This document shows, piece after piece, positions 8,672-31,377 of a stretch of DNA of 64,000 nucleotides. This DNA comes from Streptomyces griseus subsp. griseus (lineage in GTDB: Bacteria; Actinomycetota; Actinomycetes; Streptomycetales; Streptomycetaceae), in contig NZ_CP032543.1 of assembly GCF_003610995.1 (NCBI RefSeq), forward strand, positions 5,456,001-5,520,000, in the 5' to 3' direction. A program made the position numbers and the translations under genes. The notes below the pieces were generated by a model, which ran no database searches, was not told the origin of the DNA, and worked only from the letters and a program-made list of their open reading frames with translations. Within the stretch, counting starts at the first letter, position 1, and every line of letters begins with the position of its first letter.

Positions 8672-8685
8672 TGAGAGCGCTCTCA
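8672..8685. promoter_or_regulatory. LacI-type operator TGAGAGCGCTCTCA before the GH3 gene
   Basis: A perfect 14-bp palindrome with the central CG typical of LacI-family sites, ending two bases before the GH3 start codon at 8688. An identical copy lies at 31364-31377. It resembles the published cellulose/cellobiose repressor site TGGGAGCGCTCCCA of actinomycetes but differs at the third base of each half. Its left half (GAGAG) is also the only ribosome-binding-like sequence for the GH3 gene. Confidence 0.8.
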
Positions 8686-8687
8686 GA

Positions 8688-11600
8688 ATGTCTGACACCC
8701 CGTACCGCCGCCCCCGTAAGGGCAGAAGCAGACCGGCGACCGCCTTCCTGGCCGCCGCCGCGATCCTGGCCACCCTGCTCGCCGGGGCCGCGCCCAGCCA
8801 GGCCGCCGCCGACGACCCGGCCCCCGTCCTCATCGACCGCTTCGAGGGCGAGGTGCCGCTCGGCAACAACCCGCCCGCCGACGCCATCTTCACCTGGGGC
8901 GGCAACGCCACCGACCACCCGCAGCTCAGGCTCGCCGACCGCTCGGACGCCCCCGAGGGCGAGCGGGTCCTCGAAGGCTCCTACGACATCACCGCCTACG
9001 GCGGGTTCAGCCACGAGTTCGCCGTCGACACCCCGCCCCAGAACTGGACCGCCCACCAGGGCATCCGCTTCTGGTGGTACGGCCAGAACAAGGCGCCCCT
9101 GCCGCCCGGTTCGGGCAAGCGCATCCACTTCGAGATCAAGGACGGCGGCGCCAACGGCGGCGCGTCCGAGCTGTGGACCACCTCCTTCACCGACGACTGG
9201 GAAGGCTGGCAGCAGGTCGAGATCCCCTTCGCGGACTTCGTCTACCGCGCCGACTACCAGCCCGTCGGCGGCATCGACCAGATCCTCGGCCTGAACGAGA
9301 TGTGGGGCTACGCCTTCACCTTCCCGCCCGGCGCCCCCGGCACCTTCGCCCTGGACGCCGTGGAGCTCTACGGCAAGGCGGACCCGGCGCTCACCGCGAG
9401 CGTGGTCACCGACACGGCCGTGCGCCCGGTGAGGAACGGCACCAGCGCCGACCTCACCCTCTCCGTCGCCACGACCGGCTCGGCCCCCACCGAGGAGCCC
9501 ATCACCGTCACGTACGCCACCCAGGGCGGCACGGCGGTCGCGGGCAAGGACTACACCCCGGTCACCGGCAGCCACACCTTCCCCGCGGGCACCGCGTCCG
9601 GCACCGCGCACAAGGTCACCATCCGCACGGCGAAGTCGTCCACGCCCTCCGAGGCGAAGACGATCCCTCTCGAGGTGACCGTCACCGGCGCCAAGGCCCC
9701 CAAGGAGAACCCGCAGGTCGTCATCGACGCCCACGGACTCCCGTACCAGAACGCCAAGCTGCCGGTGAAGCAGCGCGTCGCCGACCTGCTGGCCCGCATG
9801 TCACCCGCCGAGAAGGCCGGCCAGATGACCCAGGCCGAGCGCAACGCCCTGCGCCTGCCCGGTGACATCGCCGCCTACGACCTCGGCTCGCTGCTCTCCG
9901 GCGGCGGCTCGGTCCCCACCCCCAACACGGCCGCCGCCTGGGCCAAGATGGTCGACGCCTACCAGCTGCGCGCCCAGGCCACCCGCTTCCAGATCCCGCT
10001 GATCTACGGCGTGGACGCGGTGCACGGCCACAACAACGTCATCGGCGCGACGATCATGCCGCACAACATCGGCATCGGCGCGGGCCGCGACCCGAGGAGC
10101 GCCGAGAGGACGGGCGCCATCACCGCCAGGGAAGTCCGCGCCACCGGCATCCCGTGGGACTTCGCCCCCTGCGTCTGCGTCACCCGCGACGAGCGCTGGG
10201 GCCGCTCCTACGAGGCCTTCGGTGAGGACCCGGCGCTGGTCGAGGCCATGGAGACGGTCATCCAGGGCATGCAGGGCGACCCCTCCGGCAAGGACCTGCA
10301 CCGCAACGACAAGGTCCTCGGCAGCGCGAAGCACTTCGTCGGCGACGGCGGCACCGAGTACGGCTCCGCCACCACCGGCTCGTACACGATCGACCAGGGC
10401 ATCACCAAGGTCACCCGCCAGGAGCTGGAGGCGGTGCACCTGTCGCCGTTCGCGGAGTCGGTCAAGCGGGGCGTGGGCACGGTCATGCCGTCGTACTCCT
10501 CCCTCGACATCCTGGGCGACGGCAAGGGCCCGGTGAAGATGCACGCCAACGCCGAGATGATCAACGGCGTCCTCAAGGACCGCATGGGCTTCGAGGGCTT
10601 CGTCATCAGCGACTGGCAGGCCATCGACCAGATCCCCGGCGACTACCCGAGCGACGTCCGTACGTCGATCAACGCCGGACTCGACATGATCATGGTTCCG
10701 ACCGCGTACCAGGAATTCACCAAGACACTCAAGGAAGAGGTCGCGGCGGGCCGGATCAGCCAGGCCCGGATCGACGACGCGGTCTCCCGCATCCTCACCC
10801 AGAAGTTCCGCCTCGGCCTCTTCGAGAAGCCGTACGCGGACACCACACACCTCGGCAAGGTCGGCTCGCCCGAGCACCGCGCGGTGGCCCGCGAGGCGGC
10901 CGCCAAGTCGCAGGTGCTGCTGAAGAACGACGGGGCCGTCCTGCCGCTCAAGCCGAACCAGAAGGTCTACGTCGCCGGGTCCAACGCCGACGACATCGGC
11001 AACCAGGCCGGCGGCTGGACGATCAGCTGGCAGGGCTCCTCCGGGAAGACCACTCCCGGCACGACGATCCTGGAGGGGATGAGGAAGGCGGCGAAGAACC
11101 CCGACTCCGTCACCTACTCGAAGGACGCCTCGGCAGCCACGGACGGTCACGACGTCGGCGTGGTGGTCGTCGGCGAGACGCCGTACGCCGAAGGCATCGG
11201 TGACGTCGGCAACGGCCACGACCTGGAGCTGACGGCCGCCGACAAGGCCGCCGTCGACAAGGTCTGCGCCGCCATGAAGTGCGCGGTCCTCATCGTCTCG
11301 GGCCGCCCGCAGCTCATCGGCGACCAGCTCGGCAGGATCAACGCGCTGGTGGCCTCCTGGCTGCCGGGCTCCGAGGGCGACGGCGTCGCGGACGTCCTCT
11401 ACGGCAAGCGCGCCTTCACCGGCCAGCTGCCGGTGACCTGGCCGAAGTCCGAGGCGCAGCTCCCCATCAACGTGGGAGACACGGCCTACGACCCGCAGTT
11501 CCCGTACGGCTGGGGCCTGACCACCCTGAACAGGCCCCCGGCCGGTGGCGAGCTGACCCTCGCGGCTCTCGCCGTCGCCGCCCAGGTCGCCCAGAAGGCG

Positions 11601-11786
11601 AAGCTGGGGAAGACCCCGGCGGGCAAGGCGATCGTGGACCAGGCGCGGCTGCTGGTCCAGCAGAAGATCAACGGGAGGTTCACGCAGGCGGTCTCGAAGC
11701 CGTTCGCGGAGGCGGACCACCTGCTGCTCAAGGGCGACCTGACGGGCGCGGTGGCCAAGCTGCGCACGGCGTACAGGGCCGCCTAG
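8688..11786 (+). CDS. Secreted multidomain GH3 beta-glucosidase/exo-glucanase
   Basis: A 1032-residue exported enzyme. The first 40 residues are a Sec signal peptide ending near PSQAAA. Then come a carbohydrate-binding-like beta-sandwich (CBM11/CIA30 style, about 45-230), a Calx-beta-like domain (about 240-345) and the GH3 catalytic domain starting at KQRVADLLARMSPAEKAGQM. The nucleophile Asp is in FVISDW (D642), KHFVGDGGT is present, and the GETPYAEGIGD block resembles barley-type exo-1,3/1,4-glucanases. The C-terminal 75 residues form an Ala-rich helical extension. No in-frame ATG, GTG or TTG exists between 8688 and the upstream stop. Likely extracellular partner of the GH1 and transporter operon. 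Confidence 0.92.
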   Translation: MSDTPYRRPRKGRSRPATAFLAAAAILATLLAGAAPSQAAADDPAPVLIDRFEGEVPLGNNPPADAIFTWGGNATDHPQLRLADRSDAPEGERVLEGSYDITAYGGFSHEFAVDTPPQNWTAHQGIRFWWYGQNKAPLPPGSGKRIHFEIKDGGANGGASELWTTSFTDDWEGWQQVEIPFADFVYRADYQPVGGIDQILGLNEMWGYAFTFPPGAPGTFALDAVELYGKADPALTASVVTDTAVRPVRNGTSADLTLSVATTGSAPTEEPITVTYATQGGTAVAGKDYTPVTGSHTFPAGTASGTAHKVTIRTAKSSTPSEAKTIPLEVTVTGAKAPKENPQVVIDAHGLPYQNAKLPVKQRVADLLARMSPAEKAGQMTQAERNALRLPGDIAAYDLGSLLSGGGSVPTPNTAAAWAKMVDAYQLRAQATRFQIPLIYGVDAVHGHNNVIGATIMPHNIGIGAGRDPRSAERTGAITAREVRATGIPWDFAPCVCVTRDERWGRSYEAFGEDPALVEAMETVIQGMQGDPSGKDLHRNDKVLGSAKHFVGDGGTEYGSATTGSYTIDQGITKVTRQELEAVHLSPFAESVKRGVGTVMPSYSSLDILGDGKGPVKMHANAEMINGVLKDRMGFEGFVISDWQAIDQIPGDYPSDVRTSINAGLDMIMVPTAYQEFTKTLKEEVAAGRISQARIDDAVSRILTQKFRLGLFEKPYADTTHLGKVGSPEHRAVAREAAAKSQVLLKNDGAVLPLKPNQKVYVAGSNADDIGNQAGGWTISWQGSSGKTTPGTTILEGMRKAAKNPDSVTYSKDASAATDGHDVGVVVVGETPYAEGIGDVGNGHDLELTAADKAAVDKVCAAMKCAVLIVSGRPQLIGDQLGRINALVASWLPGSEGDGVADVLYGKRAFTGQLPVTWPKSEAQLPINVGDTAYDPQFPYGWGLTTLNRPPAGGELTLAALAVAAQVAQKAKLGKTPAGKAIVDQARLLVQQKINGRFTQAVSKPFAEADHLLLKGDLTGAVAKLRTAYRAA

Positions 11787-11811
11787 CGGTCCGGTGCCAT
11801 CCGGTGCTCCG

Positions 11812-11838
11812 GGCGGGCGACGGCGTTTGTCGCCCGCC
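11812..11838 (+). terminator. Hairpin terminator after the GH3 gene
   Basis: A 10-bp perfect stem (11812-11821 with 11829-11838) and a 7-base loop, 25 bases after the GH3 stop. Confidence 0.6.
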
Positions 11839-11854
11839 TGGAGTAGCGTTAAGT

Positions 11855-13242
11855 ATGAGGAAACGGTTCTTCCCCTCGCTGCTGGCGGGCCTGCTGCTCA
11901 TCATGGCGGCGGCCGCACTCGCCCTGACCTCCCCTGCGTCGGCCGCCCCCGCGGCGACGATCACCGATGCCGCCCAGGCCCTGCGCGAGGACCCGGTCTA
12001 TGTGGACCCGGCCGCCCGCGATCAGCTCTCCGTCGCTGACGAGAAGGCCCTGGAAGCCACCATCCGGAACGCGGACAAGCCGGTCTTCGTCGCCGTGCTG
12101 CCCGACACCGATGCCTTCCCCGCGGAAAGCCTCCTCCGGACCCTGCGCAACGACACCGGCATCACCGGCCTCTACGCGGTACGCCTCGGCGACGGCTTCA
12201 ACGCGGGCGCGGACCCGCAGGTCATGCCGACGAGGGCGGTCGAGAACCTGACCGCGTCCGTCAAGACCTCCGCCACCGCCACCGATGCTTCGGCCCAGCT
12301 CGACGCCTTCGTCGACCGGGCCGTCGAACAGGCCCGGGGCACCGCCCCCGCCTCCTGGTCCGGCGGTGGCGGCGCGGCCGACGACCCCGGCGCCCCGGTC
12401 GCCGGTCTGATCACGCTCGGCGCCCTGGTGGCGGCGGGCGGCGCGGGCGCGTACGCGATCTCGCGCCGGAACAAGCGGCGGAAGGCGGAGGAGGAGCGGG
12501 CGGCCCTCGACAAGCTGCGGGTCGTGGTGGACGAGGACATCACGGCGTACGGCGAGACGCTGGAACGCCTGGACTTCCACCCCGCCGAACCGGGCGCCGA
12601 CGACACCATGCGCGGCGACTACGAACGGGCCCTGGACTCCTACGAGAGCGCCAAGACGAGGATGGAGAAGGCCGCGCACCCCTCGGACGTGCGGGGGTCA
12701 CCCAGTCCCTGGAGGACGGCCGCTACTCCCTCGCGGTCCTGGAGGCCCGCCGCACGGGCGCGGAGATACCGGCCCGCCGCCCGCCGTGCTTCTTCGACCC
12801 ACGGCACGGCCCCTCGGTCGCCGATGTGCTCTGGACCCCCTCGGGCGGCGCGTCCCGCGAGGTCCCGGTCTGCGGCGCCGACGAGATCCGGCTGACGCGG
12901 GGCGAGGACCCGATGAGCCGTACGGTCGACGTCGGCGACGGCAACCGCCGCCCGTACTGGGAGGCGGGCCCGGCCTACGGCCCCTGGGCCGGCGGCTACT
13001 TCGGCGGCGGCCTGCTCCCCGGCCTTCTGGTCGGCACGATGCTCGGCTCCATGCTCGCCACTCCGGCGTACGCCTCCGAGTACGGCGGCGGTGACTTCGG
13101 CGGTGGGGAGTGGGGCGGCGGCGACTTCTCCGGCTCCGACTTCGACTCGTCCGGCTTCGGCGGGGGAGGCGGCTTCGGGGACGGGGGCGGCTTCGGAGAC
13201 GGCGGAGGGTTCGGCGGCGGTGACTTCGGCGGCGGCTTCTAG
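11855..13242 (+). pseudogene. Frameshifted gene for a secreted, membrane-anchored TPM-like protein with Gly-rich tail
   Basis: The frame from ATG 11855 encodes a Sec signal peptide, a domain reminiscent of TPM/YgcG-type extracytoplasmic proteins (about residues 30-155), one membrane segment (GLITLGALVAAGGAGAYAI) and a charged cytoplasmic helix. It then loses sense after SDVRG. One extra G in the GGGGG run at 12693-12697 joins it to the frame VTQSLEDGRYSLAVLEARR, which continues to a Gly/Asp/Phe-rich C-terminus and TAG at 13240-13242. The result would be about 462 residues. Either a sequence error or a real frameshift. TAGCGT five bases before the ATG and no Shine-Dalgarno suggest a leaderless start. 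Function unknown. Confidence 0.7.
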
Positions 13243-13264
13243 CGGGCCGCCGGCCGGGAAGCCG

Positions 13265-14272
13265 CTACCGCACCGTCCACCACACGAGCACGCCCGCGAG
13301 GACGATCAACGAGCACAGCACCACATTGATCCGCCTGTAGTCGACGAGGACGGCGGCGAACTCGCGGAGGGTCGCGTTGGGCCAGAAGTACGCGGCGGTG
13401 GGGGAGCCCACGACCTGTCCGCGGATCTCCATCCGGCGGGCGGTGAGGGCGGCGCGGAACGCGTGGTAGTTGTTCGTGACCACGACGCACCGGTAGTCGG
13501 GCTTCGCCTCCTCCATGATGGCCTTGCTGAACCGCAGGTTCTCCTCGGTGTTCGTCGACCGGTCCTCCCGCCGGATCAGATGGGCCGGAAATCCCTCGGC
13601 CACCAGGTGGTCGGCCATGGCGTGCGACTCCGGCAGCTTCTCGTCCGGCCCCTGCCCGCCCGAGGTGATGAGGATGGGCGAGCCCCCGCGCCTGGCGAGC
13701 CGCGCGTGCACGGCCCGCCCCCGCCTGAGGCGGCTCGCGAGGAGCGGCGGCACGGTGGAGCCGCCGATGAGCCCGGACCCCAGCACCACGACGAAGTCGG
13801 CCTTACGCCGCACCCGCAGGCGCCCGTAGAGGAACGCGTAACAGACGAAGCACAGGAACAGGAACGAGAAGTAGAGCGCCAGCCCACCGGTGGCGGCCGC
13901 CACCGCGATGAGCGCCGGACTCCGTACGCTCACCGCGGCGGCCAGCAGCGCGACCACCCCGACGATGGCGAGGGCGGCGCCCAGCGAGAGCAGATTGGAC
14001 GGGCTCCGCCCCTCTTTCCGCAGCATCCGTACGCCGTTGACGAAGAGGAAGTACGTCAGCAGAAGGACGGCCACCGCCCCGAGCGTCAACAACGCCCAGG
14101 CCGCGACCGCGCCCGAGGTGGACTCGGACCGGATGAGCCGGTACAGCCAGGCGGCCAGGGCGCAGAGCACGGCGAGCCCCAGAACGACGGCGTTGCTGAA
14201 CTTCCTGCGGTCGTGCAGAACGCTCACACAGAAGACGAGGAGAAGGAGCGCCGCGGGGGCGTAGACGAGCAT
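13265..14272 (-). CDS. Membrane protein with DUF218 (YdcF/SanA/ElyC-like) domain
   Basis: About 335 residues. The N-terminal half holds roughly five hydrophobic segments, starting at MLVYAPAALLLLVFCVSVL. The C-terminal half is a DUF218 domain: VLGSGLIGGSTVPPLL, ITSGGQGPDEKLPES, STNTEENLRFS and VVTNNYHAFRAALTARR. The family is linked with cell-envelope sugar-nucleotide or lipid-carrier processes, but the activity is not settled. The start at 14272 is chosen because the membrane topology begins there; a longer frame up to 14380 adds a Pro-rich segment without support. It is convergent with the frameshifted gene on its left. Confidence 0.82.
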   Translation of the reverse strand: MLVYAPAALLLLVFCVSVLHDRRKFSNAVVLGLAVLCALAAWLYRLIRSESTSGAVAAWALLTLGAVAVLLLTYFLFVNGVRMLRKEGRSPSNLLSLGAALAIVGVVALLAAAVSVRSPALIAVAAATGGLALYFSFLFLCFVCYAFLYGRLRVRRKADFVVVLGSGLIGGSTVPPLLASRLRRGRAVHARLARRGGSPILITSGGQGPDEKLPESHAMADHLVAEGFPAHLIRREDRSTNTEENLRFSKAIMEEAKPDYRCVVVTNNYHAFRAALTARRMEIRGQVVGSPTAAYFWPNATLREFAAVLVDYRRINVVLCSLIVLAGVLVWWTVR

Positions 14273-14496
14273 GGGCACAGGGTAGGGGGCGGGGTCCGGG
14301 CGGGGAACGGCGAGGTGGGGCCCGGCGTCGGCCGGAGAGGGGCGCTGTGTCAGGCTGCGGCGCGTGGGGTGGACATACAAGGTGCACGGGGGAGGTGCGC
14401 CGGGCGGACCGAGGCGTCGCGGACCGGTGACGCCTGCGGCCGGGCCGCGAAAATTCAGGGCGTGCCCTTTCCAGGGGCTGAGCCGTTGAACCGGTC

Positions 14497-14730
14497 ATGA
14501 AGAAGCGAAGCGTTCTCGCCGCCGTCACTCTCGCCACCGGAGCGGTCATCGCCGCCATCGCCCCGCACCCCGGAGGCGGGGACACCGCCCACGCGGCCGA
14601 GCCGCCCATCAGCCTGGGCGCGCTGGACAACGTCGGCGATCTCGGCAAGGTGGTCGACGGCGCGGCGGACACGGCCTCCTCCACGGCAGGCACGGTGACC
14701 ACGACCCTCTCCGACGCCCGCTTCAGCTGA
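14497..14730 (+). CDS. Small secreted protein, function unknown
   Basis: A 77-residue product with a clear Sec signal peptide (MKKRSVLAAVTLATGAVIAA, cleavage probably after AHAA near residue 34). The mature part is about 43 residues, acidic, without Cys, and rich in Gly, Asp, Thr and Ser. A perfect hairpin follows the stop, so it appears to be a single-gene unit. No family recognised. Confidence 0.65.
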   Translation: MKKRSVLAAVTLATGAVIAAIAPHPGGGDTAHAAEPPISLGALDNVGDLGKVVDGAADTASSTAGTVTTTLSDARFS

Positions 14731-14767
14731 GCCGACGGACAGAGACACCGACACCGTCACAGCCACA

Positions 14768-14799
14768 GGCGGCCCACCGGGAAGAACCGGTGGGCCGCC
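14768..14799. terminator. Strong hairpin terminator
   Basis: A 13-bp perfect stem GGCGGCCCACCGG with loop GAAGAA, 37 bases after the small secreted protein gene. Confidence 0.75.
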
Positions 14800-14902
14800 T
14801 TCCGCGTGCCCGGCTCTCCCCCGACCGATCCGGGCATGGATCGGTCGGGTCCGGCAGGCTGCTCCCTTCCTACGGTGAACGGGAAGGGAAGGCGGGACAA
14901 GG

Positions 14903-15571
14903 TTGCTGGACCGACTGAACGAGGCCATGGAGTACCTCGAGTCGCATCTCGGAGGGCGCATCGAGGCCGCAGACCTCGCGCGCACCGCGATGACCTCGGA
15001 ATACCACTTCCGCCGGATGTTCTCGGCGCCGGCGGGCGTTCCGCTCGCGGAGTACATCCGCCGTCGCCGTATGACCCTCGCGGGCGCGGAAGCGTTCCGG
15101 GTGGTGGGGAGGCGGGCACGCGTTCCGCTGATCCATGAGGGGCCGAATCAAGCCATTGCGGAGTTCATCCGAGGCATCGGCCGGGAGGAGCTGGACCGCA
15201 TCGAGGCCCTCTCCGACCAGGAGCCCGCCGGGCTGCCCGGGGTGAGCGACCAGCTCGACCCGAGCCGGGCGGAGGGCACCGAGCTCGACTACCACCACGG
15301 GGTGGTGACGGGGCGGCAGGAGCCTCCGGCGGACTGGGACTCCCTTGCCGTGCCTGCCGGTTCCTGGGCGGTCTTCGAGAGTGAGGGCGAGTTCCCGCAG
15401 GCCCTCCGGCACCTCTGGCGGGACGTCTTCACTCAGTGGTTCCCGTCGAACCCGTACGCCTCCCGGCCGGACCCGGAGATCCTGCGGGTGCGGTTGTACG
15501 AGGAGGGGAAGCGGGCGGAGGCCGAGCTCTGGATCCCGGTGGAGCGCGCGCACCGTGGGCCGAGCGCGTAG
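14903..15571 (+). CDS. AraC/GyrI-type regulator with internal deletion of the second helix-turn-helix
   Basis: A 222-residue protein beginning at TTG 14903. Residues 1-55 match the first half of an AraC-type DNA-binding domain (AADLARTAMTSEYHFRRMFS, then YIRRRRMTLAGAE). The sequence then jumps at about base 15090 straight into AFRVVGRRARVPLIHEG, which in this family belongs to the GyrI-like effector domain. The second AraC helix-turn-helix and the linker, normally some 70 residues, are missing without a frame change. The GyrI-like part continues to the end. DNA binding is probably lost or altered. The comparison with the full-length family is from memory. Confidence 0.75.
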   Translation: MLDRLNEAMEYLESHLGGRIEAADLARTAMTSEYHFRRMFSAPAGVPLAEYIRRRRMTLAGAEAFRVVGRRARVPLIHEGPNQAIAEFIRGIGREELDRIEALSDQEPAGLPGVSDQLDPSRAEGTELDYHHGVVTGRQEPPADWDSLAVPAGSWAVFESEGEFPQALRHLWRDVFTQWFPSNPYASRPDPEILRVRLYEEGKRAEAELWIPVERAHRGPSA

Positions 15572-15746
15572 GCGGAAAAACGCTGGTTTACGGCCAGGGG
15601 CATATGCGCTCCCTTACTGGTCCAGACCTATTGTGCGGAGGCTTGCCGCTCGCTAGCTTTCTCTCGGCGGCGCGCGCTGGCCGGTTCGGCTCTTCCCATT
15701 CGCTGATGCACCGTCATGTGCATCGACTGAAAACGGAGTTACCGAT

Positions 15747-15989
15747 ATGCGTACACGAATCACCGCGCTCGCGGTCACCGCGGTGGCGGCGGCTGCGATG
15801 GTCCTCGGCACGGCCTCCACCGCCTCGGCGACCGGCCCCGGCTTCTGGCTCCGCAGCCACCACAGCAGCCTGGCGGAGTGTCAGGCGGTCGGGAACGCCG
15901 GCGCTGACAATGCTCTCTGGAGCCGCGTCTTCATCTGCAACCCGTACGCGGGCAAGCCCGGCGTGTACGAGCTGTGGGTGCGCTACTAG
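15747..15989 (+). CDS. Small secreted protein, function unknown
   Basis: An 80-residue product with a Sec signal peptide (MRTRITALAVTAVAAAAMVL, cleavage after ASA near residue 28). The mature part of about 52 residues has two Cys that could pair (SLAECQAV and VFICNPYAG). The ATG has AACGGAG 9 bases upstream. A nested hairpin follows. No family recognised. Confidence 0.65.
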   Translation: MRTRITALAVTAVAAAAMVLGTASTASATGPGFWLRSHHSSLAECQAVGNAGADNALWSRVFICNPYAGKPGVYELWVRY

Positions 15990-16015
15990 GCCGTGTTGTA
16001 GAAGTGGGCTCGTTC

Positions 16016-22517: not shown

Positions 22518-22539
22518 ACGTGTGCCGTGGGTCAGCAGG

Positions 22540-23127: not shown

Positions 23128-23174
23128 GGAAGCGCTCCGGGCTTGTGGGGTGCGGCGGTGTGGGGGCGGACCGG

Positions 23175-23340: not shown

Positions 23341-24408
23341 GTGAGCGGCTCCGTCCTCCCGCGCGAGGAGAGAACGACGGGCGGCGGCAGGGAAGCGCGG
23401 GCCAGGCGCAGCCGGCCCGTCCTCGCCCTCGGGCTCCTGGCCGCCCTCGGTGTGCTCGTGCTCGCCGTCGTGGCGAGCCTCGCCATCGGCTCCGGGGACG
23501 TGCCGTTCCGCGATGTGCTGCCCGGCGTCCTCGACCCCGACCTCACCGTCAAGGGCCAGCTGGTCATCCAGGAGGTCCGCATCCCGCGTACCGTCGCCGG
23601 GCTGCTCGCCGGGGCGGCGCTCGGCCTCGCGGGGACCGTCATGCAGGGCGTCGCCCGTAACCCCCTCGCCGACCCCCAGCTCCTGGGCATCAACGCGGGC
23701 GCCTCCGTCGCCGTCGTCTGCTCCATCACGCTGCTCGGCTTCACCGTCGCCACCCAGTTCATCTGGTTCGGCTTCCTCGGCGCCCTGCTCGCCGCCCTCC
23801 TCGTCTACGGGGTCGGCTCGCTCGGCCGGGAAGGCGCGACCCCGGTCAAGCTGGCCCTCGCGGGCGCCGCCACCAGCGCCGTACTCACCTCGGTCACCAG
23901 CGCGATCCTGCTCCAGGACCGCGGGAGCTACGACCAGTTCCGGTTCTGGCAGCTCGGGGCGCTGACCGCCCGCTCCTCCGAGGTGCTCTGGCAGGTCTCC
24001 CCGTTCATCCTCGTCGGGGCCGTCCTCGCCCTCTCGCTCGGGCCGCAGCTCAACGCCCTCTCCCTCGGCGACGACCTCGCGCGCGGCCTCGGCCAGCGGG
24101 TCGGGGCCGCCCGCATGGTCTCCGCCCTCGCCGTGGTCGTGCTCTGCGGCGCCGCCACCGTCGTCGCCGGGCCGATCGGCTTCGTCGGCCTCGCCGTACC
24201 GCACGCCGCCCGCCTCATCACCGGACCCGACTACCGCTGGGTGCTCCCGTACAGCATGGTTCTCGCCCCGATCATGCTGCTCTTCGCCGACATCGTCGGA
24301 CGGGTGATCGCCCCGCCCGGCGAGGTGCAGGTCGGTGTGATCACCGCCGCGATCGGCTGCGTCCCCTTCATCTGGCTGGTCCGGCGCAGGAAGCTGGTGG
24401 AACTGTGA
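23341..24408 (+). CDS. FecCD-family iron-siderophore ABC permease
   Basis: About 355 residues with nine to ten membrane segments. Family marks are [43 protein letters not shown] near the start and GPIGFVGLAVPHAARLITG toward the end. The GTG at 23341 is preferred because it follows a G-rich stretch and begins a normal cytoplasmic N-terminus; GTG 23287 is an alternative. Its stop overlaps the GTG of the second permease (GTGA). First gene of a permease-permease-ATPase-SBP cluster. Confidence 0.92.
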   Translation: MSGSVLPREERTTGGGREARARRSRPVLALGLLAALGVLVLAVVASLAIGSGDVPFRDVLPGVLDPDLTVKGQLVIQEVRIPRTVAGLLAGAALGLAGTVMQGVARNPLADPQLLGINAGASVAVVCSITLLGFTVATQFIWFGFLGALLAALLVYGVGSLGREGATPVKLALAGAATSAVLTSVTSAILLQDRGSYDQFRFWQLGALTARSSEVLWQVSPFILVGAVLALSLGPQLNALSLGDDLARGLGQRVGAARMVSALAVVVLCGAATVVAGPIGFVGLAVPHAARLITGPDYRWVLPYSMVLAPIMLLFADIVGRVIAPPGEVQVGVITAAIGCVPFIWLVRRRKLVEL

Positions 24409-25484
24409 GCCCGGGACCCGTCTCAGCCGTGGACACGGAGAAGGGCCGGCTCGCCGATGCCGTACGGCAGGTCTCCGCCGTACGCGGACGGGGGCGGCGC
24501 AGGTCCGTGACCGTCGCGGCGGCCCTGCTCGTCGCCCTGGTCGCCGTCTTCGGCGTCTCGCTCAGCTTCGGCGACATGGTCATGCCCATCGGCAAGGTCG
24601 TCGAGACGCTGCTCGGGGGCGGCGACGGCGGCTCGCGGTTCGTCGTCCTGGAGCTACGGCTGCCCCGGGCCCTCCTCGCGGTCCTCGTCGGCGCCGCGTT
24701 CGGGCTCTCCGGCGGCGTCTTCCAGACCGTGCTGCGCAATCCGCTCGCCAGCCCGGACCTCATCGGCATCAGCGCCGGGGCCAGCGCCGTCGCCGTCACC
24801 GCGGCCCTCCTCTTCCAGGTCAGCGGGCTCGCCCTCTCCGCGAGCGCCCTGGCCGGGGCGCTCGCCGCCGGGGTCGCGATCTACGGACTCGCCTGGCGGC
24901 AGGGCGTCGCCGGACAGCGGCTCGTCCTCGTCGGGATCGGCGTCGGCATGGGGCTCTCCAGCGTCGTCTGGTACGTGATGGCCCGCTCCGACGTCACCGA
25001 CGCGCAGGAGGCCTTCCGCTGGCTGGCCGGCAGCCTCAACGGGCGCTCCTGGGGCCAGTTCTGGCCGATCCTCGGCGCGCTCGCCCTCCTCGTCCCGCTC
25101 ACCGCCGTCGCCGCGCACGCCCTGCGGCCCCTCCAGCTGGGGGACGACACGGCCGCCGGACTCGGTACGAAGGTGGAGACCGGCCGGCTCGCCCTGCTCG
25201 GGTGTGCCACGGCCCTGGCGGGGGTCGCCACGGCGGCGGCCGGGCCCGTCGGGTTCGTGGCCTTCGTCGCCGCGCCGATCGCCCGCCGCCTGGTCCCCGG
25301 CCGGGGTGCCGCTCTGCCCCACGCGGCCCTGACCGGCGCCCTGCTGGTCCTCGTCGCCGACTTCGCGGCCCAGCACCTGCTGCCCTCCGTCCAGCTGCCG
25401 GTGGGTGTGGTCACCAGCATCATCGGCGCCCCGTACCTGCTGCTGCTCCTGGCCCGCGCCAACCGTGTGGGGAGTGGGGGCTGA
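24405..25484 (+). CDS. FecCD-family iron-siderophore ABC permease
   Basis: A 359-residue partner permease. It shows LRLPRALLAVLVGAAFGLSGGVFQTVLRNPLASPDLIGISAGAS and AAGPVGFVAFVAAPIARRLVPG. It starts with GTG inside the previous stop codon, so translation is coupled. The cytoplasmic N-terminus (about 35 residues) is longer than in many FecCD proteins. Confidence 0.92.
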   Translation: MSPGPVSAVDTEKGRLADAVRQVSAVRGRGRRRSVTVAAALLVALVAVFGVSLSFGDMVMPIGKVVETLLGGGDGGSRFVVLELRLPRALLAVLVGAAFGLSGGVFQTVLRNPLASPDLIGISAGASAVAVTAALLFQVSGLALSASALAGALAAGVAIYGLAWRQGVAGQRLVLVGIGVGMGLSSVVWYVMARSDVTDAQEAFRWLAGSLNGRSWGQFWPILGALALLVPLTAVAAHALRPLQLGDDTAAGLGTKVETGRLALLGCATALAGVATAAAGPVGFVAFVAAPIARRLVPGRGAALPHAALTGALLVLVADFAAQHLLPSVQLPVGVVTSIIGAPYLLLLLARANRVGSGG

Positions 25485-25485
25485 G

Positions 25486-26340
25486 ATGCCGGTCCTTCGA
25501 GATGACGACAACGAAAGGCGTGGCCAGGTCGTGGCTGAGCACACTCTTCAGGCCCGGGACGTCCGGCTCGGCTACGGCGACCGGGAGATCGTCCCCGGAC
25601 TGAGCGTCACCGTCCCGCCCGGGCGGATCACCGTCATCGTCGGCCCCAACGCCTGCGGCAAGTCGACCCTGCTGCGGGCGATGGCCCGGCTGCTCGCGCC
25701 CTCCGCCGGGGCGGTGCTCCTGAACGGCCGGTCCATCCAGGAGATGCCGACCAAGGAGGTCGCCGCGGTCCTCGGCATCCTGCCGCAGAGCCCCACGGCG
25801 CCCGAGGGCATCACCGTCTCCGACCTGGTCGGCCGCGGCCGCTACCCGCACCAGGGCTGGTTCCGCCGCTGGGGCGCGGAGGACGACGAGGCGGTCGCGC
25901 AGGCGCTGCTCTCCACCGACGTACTGGAGCTGGCGGACCGGCCGGTGGACGAGCTCTCGGGCGGTCAGCGCCAGCGGGTGTGGATCGCGATGGCGCTGGC
26001 GCAGCGTACGGACATCCTGCTGCTGGACGAGCCGACGACGTTCCTGGACGCCAGCCACCAACTCGACGTCCTGGACCTGCTCACCGACCTCAACCGCGAG
26101 CGCGGCGTCACGATGGTGGCCGTCCTGCACGACCTGAACCTGGCCTGCCGGTACGCGGACCACATGATCGCCATGAAGGACGGGCGGATCCTGGCGGAGG
26201 GGCGGCCGGCCGACATCGTGACGGAGGCGCTGGTCGGCGAGGTCTTCGGGATGCGCTGCTCGGTGATCGAGGACCCGGCGTCGGCCACCCCGATGGTGGT
26301 GCCGCTGGGCCGCCACCATGTGAAGGACCCGGCGGCCTGA
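25486..26340 (+). CDS. Iron-siderophore ABC transporter ATPase
   Basis: A 284-residue FepC/FhuC-type ATPase: Walker A GPNACGKST, Q-loop GILPQSPTAPEGITVSDLVGRGRYPHQ, signature [15 protein letters not shown], Walker B ILLLDEPTTFLD and H-loop AVLHDLNLACRYAD. The ATG at 25486 is directly after the permease stop; a GTG at 25531 is a possible alternative that trims a 15-residue N-terminal extension. Confidence 0.93.
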   Translation: MPVLRDDDNERRGQVVAEHTLQARDVRLGYGDREIVPGLSVTVPPGRITVIVGPNACGKSTLLRAMARLLAPSAGAVLLNGRSIQEMPTKEVAAVLGILPQSPTAPEGITVSDLVGRGRYPHQGWFRRWGAEDDEAVAQALLSTDVLELADRPVDELSGGQRQRVWIAMALAQRTDILLLDEPTTFLDASHQLDVLDLLTDLNRERGVTMVAVLHDLNLACRYADHMIAMKDGRILAEGRPADIVTEALVGEVFGMRCSVIEDPASATPMVVPLGRHHVKDPAA

Positions 26341-26373
26341 GACCGTACGGTCCACCCGATGGCACCGTTGTCA

Positions 26374-26392
26374 TTAGGTGAGGCTAACCTAA
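26374..26392. promoter_or_regulatory. Iron box TTAGGTGAGGCTAACCTAA
   Basis: A 19-bp site agreeing with 18 of 19 positions of the DtxR/IdeR/DmdR1 consensus. It ends 5 bases before the siderophore-binding protein ATG and covers its translation-initiation region. Iron-loaded repressor bound here should shut the gene off. Confidence 0.9.
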
Positions 26393-26397
26393 AGGGC

Positions 26398-27423
26398 ATG
26401 AACGCTTCCGCATCCCGGCGCCCGCGCCGCACCCCCGTCCTGATGGCCGGTGCCGTCGCCGCCCTGCTCGTCGGCGTCTCCGCCTGCGGTACGTCGGACG
26501 ACTCCTCCTCCGACTCGTCCGGCTCCGCGTCCCCCGCCGCCTCCGAAGGCGCCTTCCCCGCCAAGGTCGCGACGAAGTTCGGCGAGGTCACCCTCGACAA
26601 GCAGCCCAAGCGCATCGTCGCGCTCGGCTGGGGCGACGCCGAGACCGTGCTCGCGCTCGGCGGCCAGCCGGTCGGGGCGAGCGACTGGCTGCCGTTCGGC
26701 GGCGAGGGCGTCGGCCCCTGGGCGAAGGGGATGTACGACAAGGCCCCCGAGCTCATCGGCACGATGGAGCCGGAGTTCGAGAAGATCGCCTCCCTCCAGC
26801 CGGACCTCATCCTGGACACCAAGTCCAGCGGTGACCAGACCCGGTACGACACGCTGAAGAAGATCGCCCCGACCGTCGGCGTGCCCAAGGACGGCGACCA
26901 GTACAAGATCTCGTGGGAGCAGCAGACCACGATGATCGCCGCCGCGATGGGTGTGCCCGAGAAGGGCAAGGAGCTGATCGCGGAGACCGGGAAGAAGTTC
27001 GAGGCGGCCGCGAAGGCGCACCCCGAGTTCAAGGACGCCACGATCGTGCTCGGCTCGCGCACCTCCGAGGGGTACGGCGCGTACGTCGGCGGCACCGGCC
27101 GGGTCGACTTCGTGGAGCGCCTCGGCTTCAAGAACAGCCCGGCCGTCGAGGCCAAGGGCGGTGAGGGCTTCTCGGTCTCCGTCTCCAAGGAGAACCTGGA
27201 ACTCCTGGACGCCGACCTCACGGTGATGACCCCGATCGGCATCCCCGCCACGGACATCAGCAACGACCCGCTGTACCAGGCGGTCCCGTCGGTCAAGGCC
27301 GGCAACGCGCTGATCTTCGAGGACCAGCTCATCTCGCAGGCGTTCGCCACGGACTCGGTGCTCTCCGTCTCGTACGCACTGGAGAAGGTCGTCCCGCTCT
27401 TCGCGGAGAAGGTCAAGAAGTAA
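26398..27423 (+). CDS. Iron-siderophore-binding lipoprotein
   Basis: A 341-residue periplasmic-binding-protein fold (FepB/FhuD class). The lipobox is VGVSACG (Cys near residue 28), followed by a Ser/Ala linker. Family features are PKRIVALGWGDAETVLALGGQPVG, SLQPDLILDT and a C-terminal AFATDSVLSVSYALEKVVPLF. The ATG at 26398 sits just after an iron box, with AAAGGG as ribosome-binding site. It is the last gene of the importer cluster and has its own iron box, so it can be made apart from the permeases. The siderophore is not known. Confidence 0.93.
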   Translation: MNASASRRPRRTPVLMAGAVAALLVGVSACGTSDDSSSDSSGSASPAASEGAFPAKVATKFGEVTLDKQPKRIVALGWGDAETVLALGGQPVGASDWLPFGGEGVGPWAKGMYDKAPELIGTMEPEFEKIASLQPDLILDTKSSGDQTRYDTLKKIAPTVGVPKDGDQYKISWEQQTTMIAAAMGVPEKGKELIAETGKKFEAAAKAHPEFKDATIVLGSRTSEGYGAYVGGTGRVDFVERLGFKNSPAVEAKGGEGFSVSVSKENLELLDADLTVMTPIGIPATDISNDPLYQAVPSVKAGNALIFEDQLISQAFATDSVLSVSYALEKVVPLFAEKVKK

Positions 27424-27477
27424 CCTCCGCACGCACGGGGACGGCAGGCCCGTACGCCCGTACCCCCACGTACGACA

Positions 27478-27517
27478 GCGCGCCCCGCACCCGGGATGTC
27501 ACGGGTGCGGGGCGCGC
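27478..27517. terminator. Long hairpin terminator
   Basis: A 16-bp perfect stem (arms 27478-27493 and 27502-27517) with an 8-base loop between the siderophore-binding gene and the convergent YceI gene; it can serve both. Confidence 0.8.
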
Positions 27518-27632
27518 CGCTTCTTCGCGCAGGCCCCCGAGTCAGCCGGCGGGAGCCCGCGCGGCGTACGGGGCGTCGTCGGTGCCGTTCGGACCACCGC
27601 GGGGCCGCCCGTACTGCCGCGTCAGGCGTGGG

Positions 27633-28256
27633 TCACGCCTGCGGCGCCGCCTTGATCGCGGAGATGTCGAAGTTCAGCTTGACCTTGTCGCTGACCATGA
27701 CCCCGCCCGTCTCCAGCGCCGCGTTCCAGGTCAGGCCCCAGTCGGAGCGCAGGATGTCCGTGCTGCCCTCGAAGCCGACGCGCTCGTTGCCGTAGACGTC
27801 GGTGGCGGAGCCGTTGAACTCCAGGTCGATGGAGAGCGGGCGCGTGACGTCCTTGATGGTCAGGTCGCCGGTGATCCGGTACGCCTCGCCGCCCAGCTGC
27901 TCGGCGCCCGTCGACCGGAACGTCATCAGGGGGAATTTCTCGGCGTCGAAGAAGTCGCCGCTGACCAGGTGGCCGTCGCGGTCGGCGATGCCGGTGTCGA
28001 CGCTCGCGATCTTCACGTCGATGGCGGCGGAGGAGTTCGCCGGGTCGGTGCCGTCCAGGGTCAGGGTGCCCTCGTGCTCGCCGAAGGAGCCGCGCACGTT
28101 GGTGACCATCGCGTGGCGCACCGTGAAGCCGATGCTGCTGTGGGCCGGGTCGATGGTGTACGTGCCGGTCAGGGCGGCCAGCGCCGGGTCCACCGCGGGG
28201 GCTTCGGCGGTGGCGGTCGGGGTGGCGGCGGTCGACTTGCGGTTGAACAGAGCCAT
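27633..28256 (-). CDS. YceI-family protein
   Basis: A 207-residue lipocalin-like protein: TGTYTIDPAHSSIGFTVRHAMVTNVRGSF at the start of the domain, AAIDVKIASVDTGIADRDGHL and SGDFFDAEKFPLMTFRST in the middle. YceI proteins bind polyisoprenoid-like lipids. There is no signal peptide: the first 30 residues are Ala/Thr/Pro-rich and the protein is probably cytoplasmic, as in most Streptomyces YceI proteins. Repeats at 28330 and 28367 lie upstream. Confidence 0.9.
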   Translation of the reverse strand: MALFNRKSTAATPTATAEAPAVDPALAALTGTYTIDPAHSSIGFTVRHAMVTNVRGSFGEHEGTLTLDGTDPANSSAAIDVKIASVDTGIADRDGHLVSGDFFDAEKFPLMTFRSTGAEQLGGEAYRITGDLTIKDVTRPLSIDLEFNGSATDVYGNERVGFEGSTDILRSDWGLTWNAALETGGVMVSDKVKLNFDISAIKAAPQA

Positions 28257-28329
28257 GGCTCCTCCTCGGGGGACGTGTGCGAGCGGTGCTGTGCGGGGGT
28301 GGCACAGATGCAGCGGTGTCGTCGGCGTT

Positions 28330-28380
28330 GTTTAACCTTCAACGAGATCGACCCTAACGTCATCTTGTTCAAAGTTCAAC
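28330..28380. promoter_or_regulatory. AT-rich repeat pair upstream of yceI, candidate regulator site
   Basis: GTTTAACCTTCAAC (28330-28343) and GTTCAAAGTTCAAC (28367-28380) are two related blocks 37 bases apart; the second is itself a direct repeat of GTTCAA. They are unusual in such GC-rich surroundings and lie 74-124 bases before the YceI start. MarR-family regulators often control yceI in actinomycetes; none is encoded next to it. Confidence 0.45.
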
Positions 28381-28556
28381 CTTTCTCTGTGTAGGGGGCG
28401 TGCCGGAGATGGGTCGAGGGGGTGCAGGGGGGTGTCCCGTCCGGTGCCGCCCTCTGGCGGACGCGCGTAGAACTCGGGCACTATCTCCCTGCCCGGCGTG
28501 CGAGGACCCGCGCCCGTGCGCCCACCGTTTTGTCATGAGCAGGAGGAAAATCACCC

Positions 28557-29081
28557 ATGGTGAACCGCCCACGACTCCGCTCCGCCCTCACCGCCCTGGC
28601 CCTCGTCCTCGGCGCCCTCTTCGTCCCCGGCGTCGGCGCCCTCGGCAGCGGCGCCACCGAGGCGCACGCCGTCACCAAGCTGACCCACGCACAGGCGACC
28701 TCCCGGTTCAGCTCCTCCGGGATCACCTGGTCGTCCTCGGGCAACTGCTCCAACCGCAACGTCTCCACCTGCACGTCCTTCGACCAGCTCAACCTGCCGA
28801 CCGCCCAGGGCGCCCAGACGCTCAAGAGCGCCACGGGCTGCGCGCTGAGGATCACCGGCGGTACGGAGACCGGGCACGCCGGCGGCACGTACTCCCACTG
28901 GAACGGCTACAAGCTGGACTTCGCCAAGAGCACCTGCCTGAACAACTACGTCACCGGCGTCTTCACCTACATCGGGGTACGCGGCGACGGCGCCCGCCAG
29001 TACCAGTCCGGCTCCGGCAACATCTACGCCGACGAGGGCAACCACTGGGACGTGACCTACTACAACTGCGGGGGCTGCTGA
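28557..29081 (+). CDS. Secreted protein, possibly peptidase M15-like
   Basis: A 174-residue exported protein. Signal peptide about residues 1-38 (cleavage after AHA). The mature part has six Cys and the block GCALRITGGTETGHAGGTYSHWNGYKLDF, whose His/Asp spacing recalls the zinc site of M15 D,D-peptidases (H-x6-D), followed by DEGNHWDVTYYNC with another His. A cell-wall peptidase-like fold is plausible but not proven. The ATG at 28557 has AGGAGGAAA upstream. Confidence 0.7.
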   Translation: MVNRPRLRSALTALALVLGALFVPGVGALGSGATEAHAVTKLTHAQATSRFSSSGITWSSSGNCSNRNVSTCTSFDQLNLPTAQGAQTLKSATGCALRITGGTETGHAGGTYSHWNGYKLDFAKSTCLNNYVTGVFTYIGVRGDGARQYQSGSGNIYADEGNHWDVTYYNCGGC

Positions 29082-29100
29082 CCCCCCTTACGCACACGCA

Positions 29101-29137
29101 CGGGCCGCCCGCCCCCTCTCGAAGGGCGGACGGCCCG
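29101..29137. terminator. Bidirectional hairpin terminator
   Basis: CGGGCCG-C-CCGCCC pairs with GGGCGG-A-CGGCCCG (one mismatch) between two convergent genes. Confidence 0.7.
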
Positions 29138-29151
29138 CTCACCCGCAAGGC

Positions 29152-29853
29152 TCAGCCGATCGGGTCCACCGTCGGCCCCTCCCGCTCCAGCAGCTTCCGG
29201 GCGAACCCCTCCCACTGCGCGTACCGGTCCGGGTACGCGGACCGCTGCACCGCCTGGCACGCCTTGCCCGGCTCCATCGACTGCCAGCCCTTGATCTGGA
29301 GCAGCCCCGGGTTGGTGGTCGGCGACGGCAGCCCGTAGAAGGACTTCGACGCGGTCGGGACGTGGGTGATCTGCTTCGGGGTGCCCCAGCCCATGCTCGG
29401 ACGCTGCTGGAAGATCCCGAGGGAGTCGTGGTCCACCGGAGTCGTGTAGTTGACGAACTTGGACTCCTGCATGGCCGTCATCAGGGCGATCACCTGCCCC
29501 TGCTCCGGGATGTCCGCCCCCTTCCCGACGCCGATGACCGTACGCGCGTGCGCGAGCTGTTCCGGGCCCAGGTCCGAGGGGTCGGCGAAGGCCGCGCGCA
29601 GGTGGCTGTCCGGGGCCGTCTTGAGGAGGTGGGCCGTCGCGGTGTCCACCTGGCCGGTGGGCGCCAGCCCGTAACTCTGCTGGAAGGTGCGCAGGCCCTG
29701 GGCGGAGGCGGGCGGCGGGGGCGTGGAGGCCTGGGCGGCGGCGGTGGGGGCCGCCGCCAGCAGGACGACGGCGGCGAGCGCCGCGAGCGTACGGCGGGGG
29801 AGCCCGGTCACTGGCCTGCGGACGGTCTTTCGCCTACAGAGGTTCTTTCGCAT
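29152..29853 (-). CDS. Secreted peptidoglycan-binding/lysozyme-like domain protein
   Basis: A 233-residue exported protein. A basic N-terminus and LAALAAVVLLAAAPTAAAQA form the signal peptide. Residues about 50-80 (LRTFQQSYGLAPTGQVDTATAHLL) look like a small peptidoglycan-binding domain. The rest (VIALMTAMQESKFVNY, HDSLGIFQQRPSMGWGTPKQI, CQAVQRSAYPDRYAQWE) is a lysozyme-like/transglycosylase-like fold common in Streptomyces secreted proteins. Activity is inferred only. Confidence 0.75.
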   Translation of the reverse strand: MRKNLCRRKTVRRPVTGLPRRTLAALAAVVLLAAAPTAAAQASTPPPPASAQGLRTFQQSYGLAPTGQVDTATAHLLKTAPDSHLRAAFADPSDLGPEQLAHARTVIGVGKGADIPEQGQVIALMTAMQESKFVNYTTPVDHDSLGIFQQRPSMGWGTPKQITHVPTASKSFYGLPSPTTNPGLLQIKGWQSMEPGKACQAVQRSAYPDRYAQWEGFARKLLEREGPTVDPIG

Positions 29854-29953
29854 ACGGAACGTTTCCGGGACGCCGCAGCGAAAGTCAAGAATGCCGTGAA
29901 TAGTATGAATTGATGGTGTGTCGCGCCCCGAGGGCTGTGCAGGCAGAGAGCGC

Positions 29954-29978
29954 CCTCCGCCGGACCGGCCGGCGGAGG
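29954..29978 (-). terminator. Hairpin terminator downstream of the GH64 gene
   Basis: A perfect 10-bp stem CCTCCGCCGG/CCGGCGGAGG with a 5-base loop, second of two consecutive hairpins after the GH64 stop on the minus strand. Confidence 0.65.
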
Positions 29979-29985
29979 ACGCTCA

Positions 29986-30010
29986 CCTGACGGCCGCGAC
30001 GGCCGTCAGG
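29986..30010 (-). terminator. Hairpin overlapping the GH64 stop codon
   Basis: CCTGACGGCC pairs with GGCCGTCAGG and includes the TGA of the GH64 gene (30006-30008, minus strand). Confidence 0.6.
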
Positions 30011-31231
30011 CCCCCACGCTCACCGTGAAGCGGCGCGGATTCCCGTCGTGCGCCGCGCCCGAGACATCGGGCTCGCCGTCCGGGCGCACATCGTCGTACG
30101 GGAAGGCGTAGCCGATCGGGCTGTTGGCGTGGACCACGCGGGACCAGTGGTTGGTCACTTCGCCCTTGTAGTAGTCCGACACCGATGTGCCGTTCGGCTG
30201 GCTGGGGTGGCTCAGCATGATCGACCGGTTGAAGCCGGCCGCCAGCCGCGCCAGGATCGCCTTCTTGTCGTCGGAGTCACCCGGGTTGTTGGTGAACGGC
30301 CCGTGGTTGCAGGTGAAGATGTCCTTCGTCTCCGGCTTGGTGAAGGTGTGGCCGCCCTCGAACGTCAGCGTGTCCCCGCTGACCCGGCCGGCCAGCGTGC
30401 CCCGGCCGCCCTGGAGGTCGATCCGCAGGTCCTCGGAGCGGTACTTCTCCCAGACCTCGTCGATCTGCGCCTCGAACAGGCCCCGGAACGGCATCTCGTC
30501 GGGCCGGTCGAAGTACGGCGCCATGATGTTCTGCGGCGAGACGACCCGCAGCACCTTGCCGTCGTCGCCCCGGGTGACCAGCTTGTCCCACGGCTGCCCA
30601 TCGGCGGCCGCCTGGGCGATCAGGTCCTCGGCGATCCGCTCCGCAGCGCCCTCGGGTGGGGGGCCACCACATGGGTGCCGTCACCCTCCAGCGTGATGCC
30701 GATCGGGAGGGCGGTGATCAGGTCCACGTAGCTGATGTTGGAGTACAGCTGCTCGGTGTTGAAGGTGAATTCGGCGAACGCCCAGGTCCGCCCGTAGTTC
30801 GGGTCCGTCGGCGTCGCGAAGGCGGGCTCCACCAGCGAGGGGCCCGGGTTGAGGAAGAAGTCCAGCTTGTCGTCGCGGACGAAGTAGACCCGCGCCCCGT
30901 ACATCTGCGGCAGGGTCAGCACCACCGGGGCCGCGCCCGCGCCGTTGAGCGGGATCGCGCAGTCGACCGGGAGCGGGGTCTGCGGGGCGCCGGGGGAGTC
31001 GGGGCGGTAGACCTCGCCGTTCGGCCGGAGCAGCACCCAGCGGTCGGTGCCCAGCTCATGGCCGGTGACGTACGCGTGCACCGTGCCCGGCAACGACTTG
31101 TTCTCCAGGGCGATTTCGCAGGTGGCGGGCGCGGCCGAGGCGCGCGGGCTGAGGGCGGTGCCCCAGGCGGGGTACGTCAGCGCGGCAGCCGACGCGGCGG
31201 CGCCGGTCAGGAACATTCGGCGTGAAATCAC
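30006..31231 (-). pseudogene. Frameshifted GH64 beta-1,3-glucanase gene, Tat-secreted
   Basis: From GTG 31231 (GGGAG 8 bases upstream) the product starts with a twin-arginine signal, ISRRMFLTGAAASAAAL, and continues as a GH64 laminaripentaose-producing-type beta-1,3-glucanase (LPGTVHAYVTGHELGTDRWV, FFLNPGPSLVEPAFATPTDPN, FTFNTEQLYSNISYVDL). The frame fails at THVVAPHP. One extra base in the GGG run at 30654-30656 (plus strand) restores HPEGAAERIAEDLIAQAAADG and the rest of the domain to 30006, giving about 408 residues. A sequence error is likely. It shares the intergenic TGAGAGCGCTCTCA site with the GH101 gene. The enzyme would cut beta-1,3-glucan outside the cell. Confidence 0.85.
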
Positions 31232-31363
31232 GAGGGAACTCCCGAGTGTGTGGGGGCCGCAGACGGGTCGTGGGGGTGTGGGGGGAGGGACCGGACAGTG
31301 GGGGTGTCTGCGGGGGTGCGCACCACTCTTACGAGGGGTGCGGCGGGCGTCAAGACTTATGTC

Positions 31364-31377
31364 TGAGAGCGCTCTCA
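31364..31377. promoter_or_regulatory. LacI-type operator TGAGAGCGCTCTCA between GH64 and GH101
   Basis: Identical to the 14-bp palindrome before the GH3 gene. It lies 132 bases from the GH64 start on one side and 226 bases from the GH101 start on the other, so it could repress either or both divergent promoters. Confidence 0.8.

Follow-up and report, generated by a model that had tools for sequence, protein, structure and literature searches.

Among the closest described relatives of the system considered here are the CebR and CelR regulons of Streptomyces and Thermobifida, which, according to excerpts of two papers, share with it a LacI repressor, a 14-bp palindrome, and an ATP-binding cassette (ABC) importer, a beta-glucosidase and scattered secreted glycanases governed by a single operator (PMC4898821, PMC3377646). 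We have analysed a 64,000-nucleotide stretch of the Streptomyces griseus subsp. griseus genome (contig NZ_CP032543.1, positions 5,456,001 to 5,520,000), referred to below as the window, in which the 14-bp palindrome TGAGAGCGCTCTCA precedes a glycoside hydrolase family 3 (GH3) gene and recurs between genes for GH64 and GH101 enzymes. In our judgement, TGAGAGCGCTCTCA is likely to be the operator of a LacI repressor encoded at another locus, L006, with beta-1,3-glucan genes under its control, the LacI of the window being a separate, local repressor.

The palindrome itself was already reported in 2012 from Catenulispora acidiphila and Thermobispora bispora, in which the identical 14-mer stands upstream of an operon for a putative cellobiose ABC importer. 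In C. acidiphila, it is also found before a LacI gene accompanied by a GH5 gene and before two GH16 genes, possibly endo-1,3-glucanases according to the authors; the excerpts of that paper tie no regulator to the site by test in either species and give few targets (PMC3377646). In S. griseus, the same palindrome similarly precedes an ABC-importer operon and putative 1,3-glucanase genes, and the Streptomyces set adds GH64, GH81, GH3 and protease genes to targets of the Catenulispora type. A further parallel is the BglR operon of Thermotoga maritima, bglREFGKL-TM0026-bglB-lamA, in which an importer for cellobiose and laminaribiose, a beta-glucosidase and a laminarinase are likewise placed under one repressor; BglR is, however, a ROK-family protein serving one operon, whereas both regulators here have LacI domains and the sites are spread over the chromosome (excerpts of PMC3750489). 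An earlier sequence-only reading of the window knew of no Streptomyces system described with precisely this combination of parts, but in the light of the excerpted Catenulispora (PMC3377646) and Thermotoga (PMC3750489) systems it is not new in kind. In the literature screened by title and start of abstract, a scope outside which most subscription papers and supplements fall, we found no described Streptomyces beta-1,3-glucan LacI regulon, nor in print a tested regulator of the 14-mer, a list of its targets across the genus Streptomyces or the membership of a protease. A study of Streptomyces sp. SirexAA-E on xylan names a secreted GH64 and LacI proteins and, in its excerpted part, does not mention the site (PMC12772271). 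Among the papers searched, the 14-mer occurs in one and its 12-base core in two, PMC3377646 and PMC9657692, the second of which deals, by its title, with a sugarcane disease spray.

TGAGAGCGCTCTCA is a perfect palindrome, of which the window holds two exact copies, where the sequence-only reading had placed them:

8672-8685, no strand: exact copy of the predicted 14-bp operator TGAGAGCGCTCTCA, ending 2 bp 5' of the GH3 ATG
31364-31377, no strand: exact copy of the predicted 14-bp operator TGAGAGCGCTCTCA, between the divergent GH64 and GH101 genes, 132 bp from the GH64 start

The GH64/GH101 copy is identical in six of six aligned relatives, all six of which were found via a site. The genome-wide search that the same reading had proposed returned six exact copies against none for the reversed pattern, about 0.02 being expected in 7.24 Mb from base-composition arithmetic, and 28 copies against 6 when up to two mismatches were allowed. 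A scan of the window at three mismatches gave 4 sites against 3.4 expected, which is uninformative on exact copies and is not used as evidence. The operator is thus not restricted to the two clusters of the window, and its copies are spread over the genome. Elsewhere, exact copies lie about 45 bp upstream of another GH64 gene (L005), upstream of a GH43 gene (L007) and upstream of a gene encoding a protease with an alpha-lytic prodomain (L008), the catalytic part of which matches solved chymotrypsin-like, alpha-lytic and streptogrisin proteases. At L006, an exact copy (L006:9599) precedes an operon for a binding protein, two permeases and a GH1 enzyme, and a one-mismatch site (L006:9762) precedes a divergent GH81 gene. 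The nearest solved relative of the L006 binding protein is named cellobiose-binding (8bfy), and we take this sugar importer to be of the CUT1 type.

Across the genus, 488 exact sites were found in 167 of 199 genomes. Seventy-five of these, from 29 other genomes and taken in listing order, were surveyed by assigning the nearest gene on each side within about 500 bp to blastp clusters that included reference proteins of the S. griseus genome, so that one site may count twice. The neighbours were GH64 (26), GH16 (19), the protease (14), GH81 (6), GH101 (5), a CUT1-type binding protein (4), a Tat-signal protein family (4), GH3 (3), LacI (2) and other genes (21). Of the 75 sites, 67 have a neighbour from the core set of GH64, GH16, GH81, GH3, importer, protease and LacI, and 51 adjoin a member of the GH64, GH16 or GH81 clusters; among the eight without such a core target, four have the Tat-signal protein and one, close to the end of a contig, has no called gene beside it. 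Pfam scans of four members of the GH16 cluster gave two GH16 matches, one weak match to SKN1/KRE6 only and one with no match, and the alpha-lytic prodomain was present in all three protease-cluster members scanned. In the relative SirexAA-E, four exact sites fall at a GH16 gene, in the counterpart of the window importer cluster, between GH64 and GH101, and upstream of the protease gene, and there are two one-mismatch sites, the one looked at adjoining a GH16-like gene.

The Tat-signal family, of about 470 residues, stands directly 3' of an exact 14-mer at four of the 75 sites:

L164:3525-4952, member of the Tat-signal family
L167:3525-4925, member of the Tat-signal family
L175:3544-4917, member of the Tat-signal family
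L189:2078-3490, member of the Tat-signal family

The one member tested has no Pfam, NCBIfam or solved-structure match. With 1048 relatives scored, one of the 120 listed is named a glycoside hydrolase family protein by its source, and the predicted model of the L164 protein is helix-rich and of a quality inadequate for fold searching (mean predicted local distance difference test score, pLDDT, 43).

The L006 LacI gene (genome positions 4,227,299-4,228,339) lies about 1.2 Mb from the window beside the GH81, sugar importer and GH1 genes, and its product contains PF00356 and PF13377, the LacI helix-turn-helix and periplasmic-binding-like domains. In the pairing of such a regulator with an adjacent importer and GH1 gene under the same operator, the L006 system is like CebR, yet it is not CebR. 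TGAGAGCGCTCTCA and the CebR-type TGGGAGCGCTCCCA differ at 2 of 14 positions, one base in each half-site, and six exact CebR-type sites occur elsewhere in the genome; the neighbours of TGAGAGCGCTCTCA belong to 1,3-glucanase families, and the L006 LacI, a separate protein, is 47% identical to the LacI at the CebR position of the same genome.

The assignment of TGAGAGCGCTCTCA to the L006 LacI draws first on its distribution in the 199 genomes. With presence of an L006-type LacI defined by a best E value of 1e-95 or better, the 14-mer is found in 163 of 169 genomes that have the gene and in 4 of 30 that do not (Fisher 8e-23). Two of these four proved to hold a relative: in G104, one of 58% identity lies 75 bp from an exact site that stands before it, and in G049, a partial match at a contig end, of 69% identity, is again 75 bp from a site. 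The corrected table reads 165 of 171 with the LacI against 2 of 28 without. Sites occur in 121 of the 127 genomes that have only the L006 type, in none of the three that have only the window type and, before correction, in 4 of the 27 that have neither. In 7 of the 20 L006-type loci chosen (from 19 genomes, five of them picked for having no exact site), a one-mismatch site stands 74-88 bp ahead of the matched LacI start, and S. griseus itself has a two-mismatch site 102 bp upstream of the gene. The recognition residues also separate the regulators. In the LacI family, according to excerpts of the paper from which we take the residue numbering, this pair tracks operator positions 5 and 4 (PMC2978694). 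It is R,A in 49 of 50 L006-type loci (R,S in the other), R,G in the LacI proteins beside TGGGAGCGCTCCCA sites, which are CebR by position, and K,T in 80 of 80 window-type orthologues.

The window cluster is predicted from sequence to be one target of this beta-1,3-glucan regulon. The genes around the two sites are these:

1392-3074, plus strand: family-5 solute-binding protein of the importer (Pfam SBP_bac_5)
3094-4158, plus strand: ABC importer ATPase with an oligo_HPY tail (Pfam)
4095-5135, plus strand: ABC importer permease, start uncertain (Pfam)
5135-6145, plus strand: second importer permease, start approximate (open frame by eye from the listing of open reading frames, no Pfam scan)
6142-7137, plus strand: second importer ATPase, start approximate (ABC_tran and oligo_HPY in the open reading frame 5296-7137)
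7177-8589, plus strand: GH1 beta-glucosidase-family enzyme (Pfam), no obvious signal peptide by eye
8688-11786, plus strand: GH3 enzyme with CBM11 and a signal-peptide-like start (Pfam)
30006-31231, minus strand: GH64 beta-1,3-glucanase, frameshifted near 30,650 (frames; blast link to GH64 proteins)
31436-34825, plus strand: GH101 endo-alpha-N-acetylgalactosaminidase, true start probably downstream (Pfam)

The earlier gene calls hold by Pfam for LacI, SBP_bac_5, one permease, the two ABC ATPases, GH1, GH3 and GH101. That one operator links the two clusters, the parts of which suit beta-glucan use, is borne out in SirexAA-E, where one exact 14-mer lies just inside the 5' end of the binding-protein gene and another in the GH64/GH101 gap 27 kb away. 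The operator that ties the cluster to the regulon seems to be placed differently in different lineages. A site with up to two mismatches stands at the GH3 start in every one of the 12 loci among L022-L036 that have GH1 followed by GH3 (two exact, one with one mismatch and nine a hybrid, AGAGAGCGCTCCCA). Ten further relatives have GH3 at most 600 bp from GH1; none of them has a site at GH3, and in nine the importer binding-protein gene carries one, with at most one mismatch, within its first codons. Such an in-gene site is present in 18 of 54 relatives that have the binding-protein gene and is exact in 12 of the 18. Its sequence includes AGA, a rare codon (1.6% of Arg codons), which close relatives without the site also keep where the codon is readable, so this position may hold either the remnant or the beginnings of an operator.

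For the window importer, a sugar substrate is plausible; the solved family-5 relatives of its binding protein are mostly named peptide-binding, and a few chitin-oligosaccharide- or mannoside-binding. The GH64 gene is broken by a one-base frameshift in a C-rich run and is a single open frame in relatives, which may reflect a sequencing error or a real recent loss; an intact GH64 is present elsewhere in the genome.

The direct support for control by the L006 LacI consists of the sites, their neighbours, their association with the L006 LacI across 199 genomes, the distinct palindrome of the window LacI and the residue difference; from these we infer binding, repression and the inducer, the last from the nature of the targets. 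When beta-1,3-glucan is lacking, the L006 LacI would occupy the promoters of its targets and block RNA polymerase. These would comprise the secreted GH64 and GH81 enzymes (GH16 in relatives), the window GH3, its own importer-GH1 operon, GH43 and the alpha-lytic-type protease. A beta-1,3-gluco-oligosaccharide taken up by the importer would then release it, and the window LacI would act as a second, local repressor of its own lacI-importer-GH1 operon through CCGGTTCCGGAACCGG. The geometry of the promoters is in keeping with repression. Of the 109 target sides at the 75 surveyed sites, 48 have a TTGAC box inside the operator or no more than 60 bp ahead of it; on the reverse strand of the same stretches, 10 of 109 do. 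The count includes repeated orthologous promoters, and the distances peak at 28 and 39 bp. With the box just before or inside them, many operators would sit at or just after the start point, which fits a repressor.

Several observations weigh against this assignment. In the GH64/GH101 gap, all seven aligned sequences have the TTGACG toward GH64 downstream of the operator, which a simple block leaves unexplained. The control site TGGGAGCGCTCCCA also leans with the L006 LacI (156 of 169 genomes against 20 of 30, p 4e-4); being weaker but not null, it indicates that part of the co-occurrence signal is lineage, and the statistics ignore phylogeny. The correction of the table was one-sided, since it re-checked the four LacI-absent genomes with sites and not the 26 with neither, and some absences will be false because no more than the ten best first-look LacI candidates per genome were scored. 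Two genomes, G101 and G179, have the site with no L006-type LacI found, and around locus L238 of G179 no gene of any of the five LacI types turns up over about 10 kb. Conversely, six genomes with the L006 LacI lack an exact site. Five of these were looked at (G007 is the sixth); one has three one-mismatch sites, and the other four have no site at up to two mismatches in 13 kb. Ten further loci of the 20 chosen have no 14-mer at up to two mismatches just upstream of the LacI gene. Finally, the GH3 site in 9 of the 12 close relatives, AGAGAGCGCTCCCA, is half-way to the CebR site.

That hybrid, together with the difference of only 2 in 14 bases and the presence of both site types in the genome, is what speaks for the alternative that CebR, the cello-oligosaccharide repressor, also acts here, with the 14-mers serving as weak or shared operators for it. 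We consider this unlikely. The genome has perfect palindromes of both types, each with neighbours of its own, and 16 of 20 genomes with CebR sites and no L006 LacI match lack the 14-mer, two of the remaining four being those that turned out to hold an L006-type LacI.

The sequence-only reading assigned the 14-mer to the LacI of the window, which would then run a closed regulon of the two clusters. The elements concerned are as follows:

171-199, plus strand: promoter-like element TTGACG-17 bp-TTAACT before lacI (sequence)
218-233, no strand: putative operator of the local LacI, CCGGTTCCGGAACCGG (sequence conservation)
331-1305, plus strand: local LacI-family regulator with the K,T recognition pair (Pfam LacI and Peripla_BP_3), probably not the 14-mer binder

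In favour of this, the gene neighbours both the importer and the first site, site numbers are slightly higher where both LacI types are present than where the L006 type occurs without the other (mean 3.4 against 2.7, p 0.008), a 14-mer at up to two mismatches lies in 4 of 81 promoters of the window-type LacI, and the in-gene sites described above fall in its importer cluster in 18 of 54 relatives. Its promoter, however, does not share the operator of the GH genes and has CCGGTTCCGGAACCGG in its place. A palindrome within two mismatches of CCGGTTCCGGAACCGG is present in 79 of 81 orthologous promoters, as against only the 4 of 81 for the 14-mer at the same tolerance, and is preceded in 18 of 19 aligned promoters by a TTGACG-17-TTAACT-like element (TTAACT or TTGACT). 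As an exact 16-mer, CCGGTTCCGGAACCGG has a single copy in the genome, the one in the window, its near-copies being at background (59 against 42 reversed at up to two mismatches), and it is exact in three genomes that have the window-type LacI and neither an L006 match nor a 14-mer. Co-occurrence of the 14-mer with the window LacI is not significant (42 of 45 genomes with it, 125 of 154 without, p 0.06). Because of its own conserved palindrome, its K,T residues in place of R,A and this lack of significant association, while another LacI predicts the 14-mer, the window LacI is rejected as binder; on sequence evidence it is probably not the reader of the site, and a closed two-cluster regulon is very improbable. 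Binding by another LacI elsewhere, which the same reading had listed as one of the outcomes contrary to its proposal, is where the evidence points.

Paralogous R,A proteins of the L014 or L019 type, with neighbouring sites AGAGAGCGCTCTCT or GGAGAGCGCTCTCC, have the same recognition pair and a nearly identical site core, and are very improbable as binders. A gene of at least 70% identity to that of L014 is listed for only 26 of 199 genomes, against 167 with the 14-mer, and ten genomes without an L006 match (G009, G054, G058, G087, G095, G102, G137, G149, G164 and G185) have an L014 match of E 1e-98 or better and no 14-mer. The paralogues are accordingly rejected as main binder on the distribution of the L014 type, the L019 type not having been queried separately. 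Last, and negligible in our estimate, is the notion that the 14-mers are chance or neutral repeats of a GC-rich palindrome, which has the small copy number and nothing else in its favour and is rejected on the counts against the reversed pattern given above, the consistency of neighbours across sites and the retention of the rare AGA codon within the importer-gene copies.

The sister palindromes GGAGAGCGCTCTCC (five copies) and AGAGAGCGCTCTCT (three) lie beside DUF1996, F5/8-type-C and GH16 genes and two R,A LacI genes, and probably mark a sibling regulon; the neighbour at L016 has no Pfam match.

L008:11482 and L008:12810, sister palindromes
L013:10020, sister palindrome
L014:9972 and L014:10081, sister palindromes
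L015:10001, sister palindrome
L016:10038, sister palindrome
L019:2970, sister palindrome

In two genomes without the 14-mer (L241 and L242), AGAGAGCGCTCTCT is found about 235 bp before a window-type LacI, and the L241 contig has another LacI. Elsewhere in the window, at 37717-48789 on the minus strand, two similar gene sets follow one another (frames beginning VDFASSSGG... and MSQAAQNLN..., then a long frame), by appearance presumably a duplicated conservon-like cluster.

Beta-1,3-glucan is a main glucan of fungal walls, and zymolyase-type commercial mixes combine a beta-1,3-glucanase with a lytic serine protease. It is possible, though we stop short of favouring the idea, that the L006 targets amount to a genetic counterpart of zymolyase, a dedicated fungal-wall-lysis regulon in which the L006-type LacI would co-ordinate three endo-beta-1,3-glucanase families, the alpha-lytic-type protease, import and internal hydrolysis; the Tat-signal family would then be a new glucan-active enzyme, and the window family-5 importer would have been recruited by operators arising at different places in each lineage. 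It differs from zymolyase in being a predicted co-regulated gene set.

When the site was published in 2012, no regulator had been tested for it; what is new here is a proposed regulator, a genus-wide list of targets and the protease as one of them. The analysis yields three candidates, namely the regulator, the importer and an unclassified exported protein, and it cautions that a site may be read by a LacI other than the one encoded closest to it. It also suggests joint induction of a secreted protease and beta-1,3-glucanases, which bears on how Streptomyces may attack or feed on fungi.

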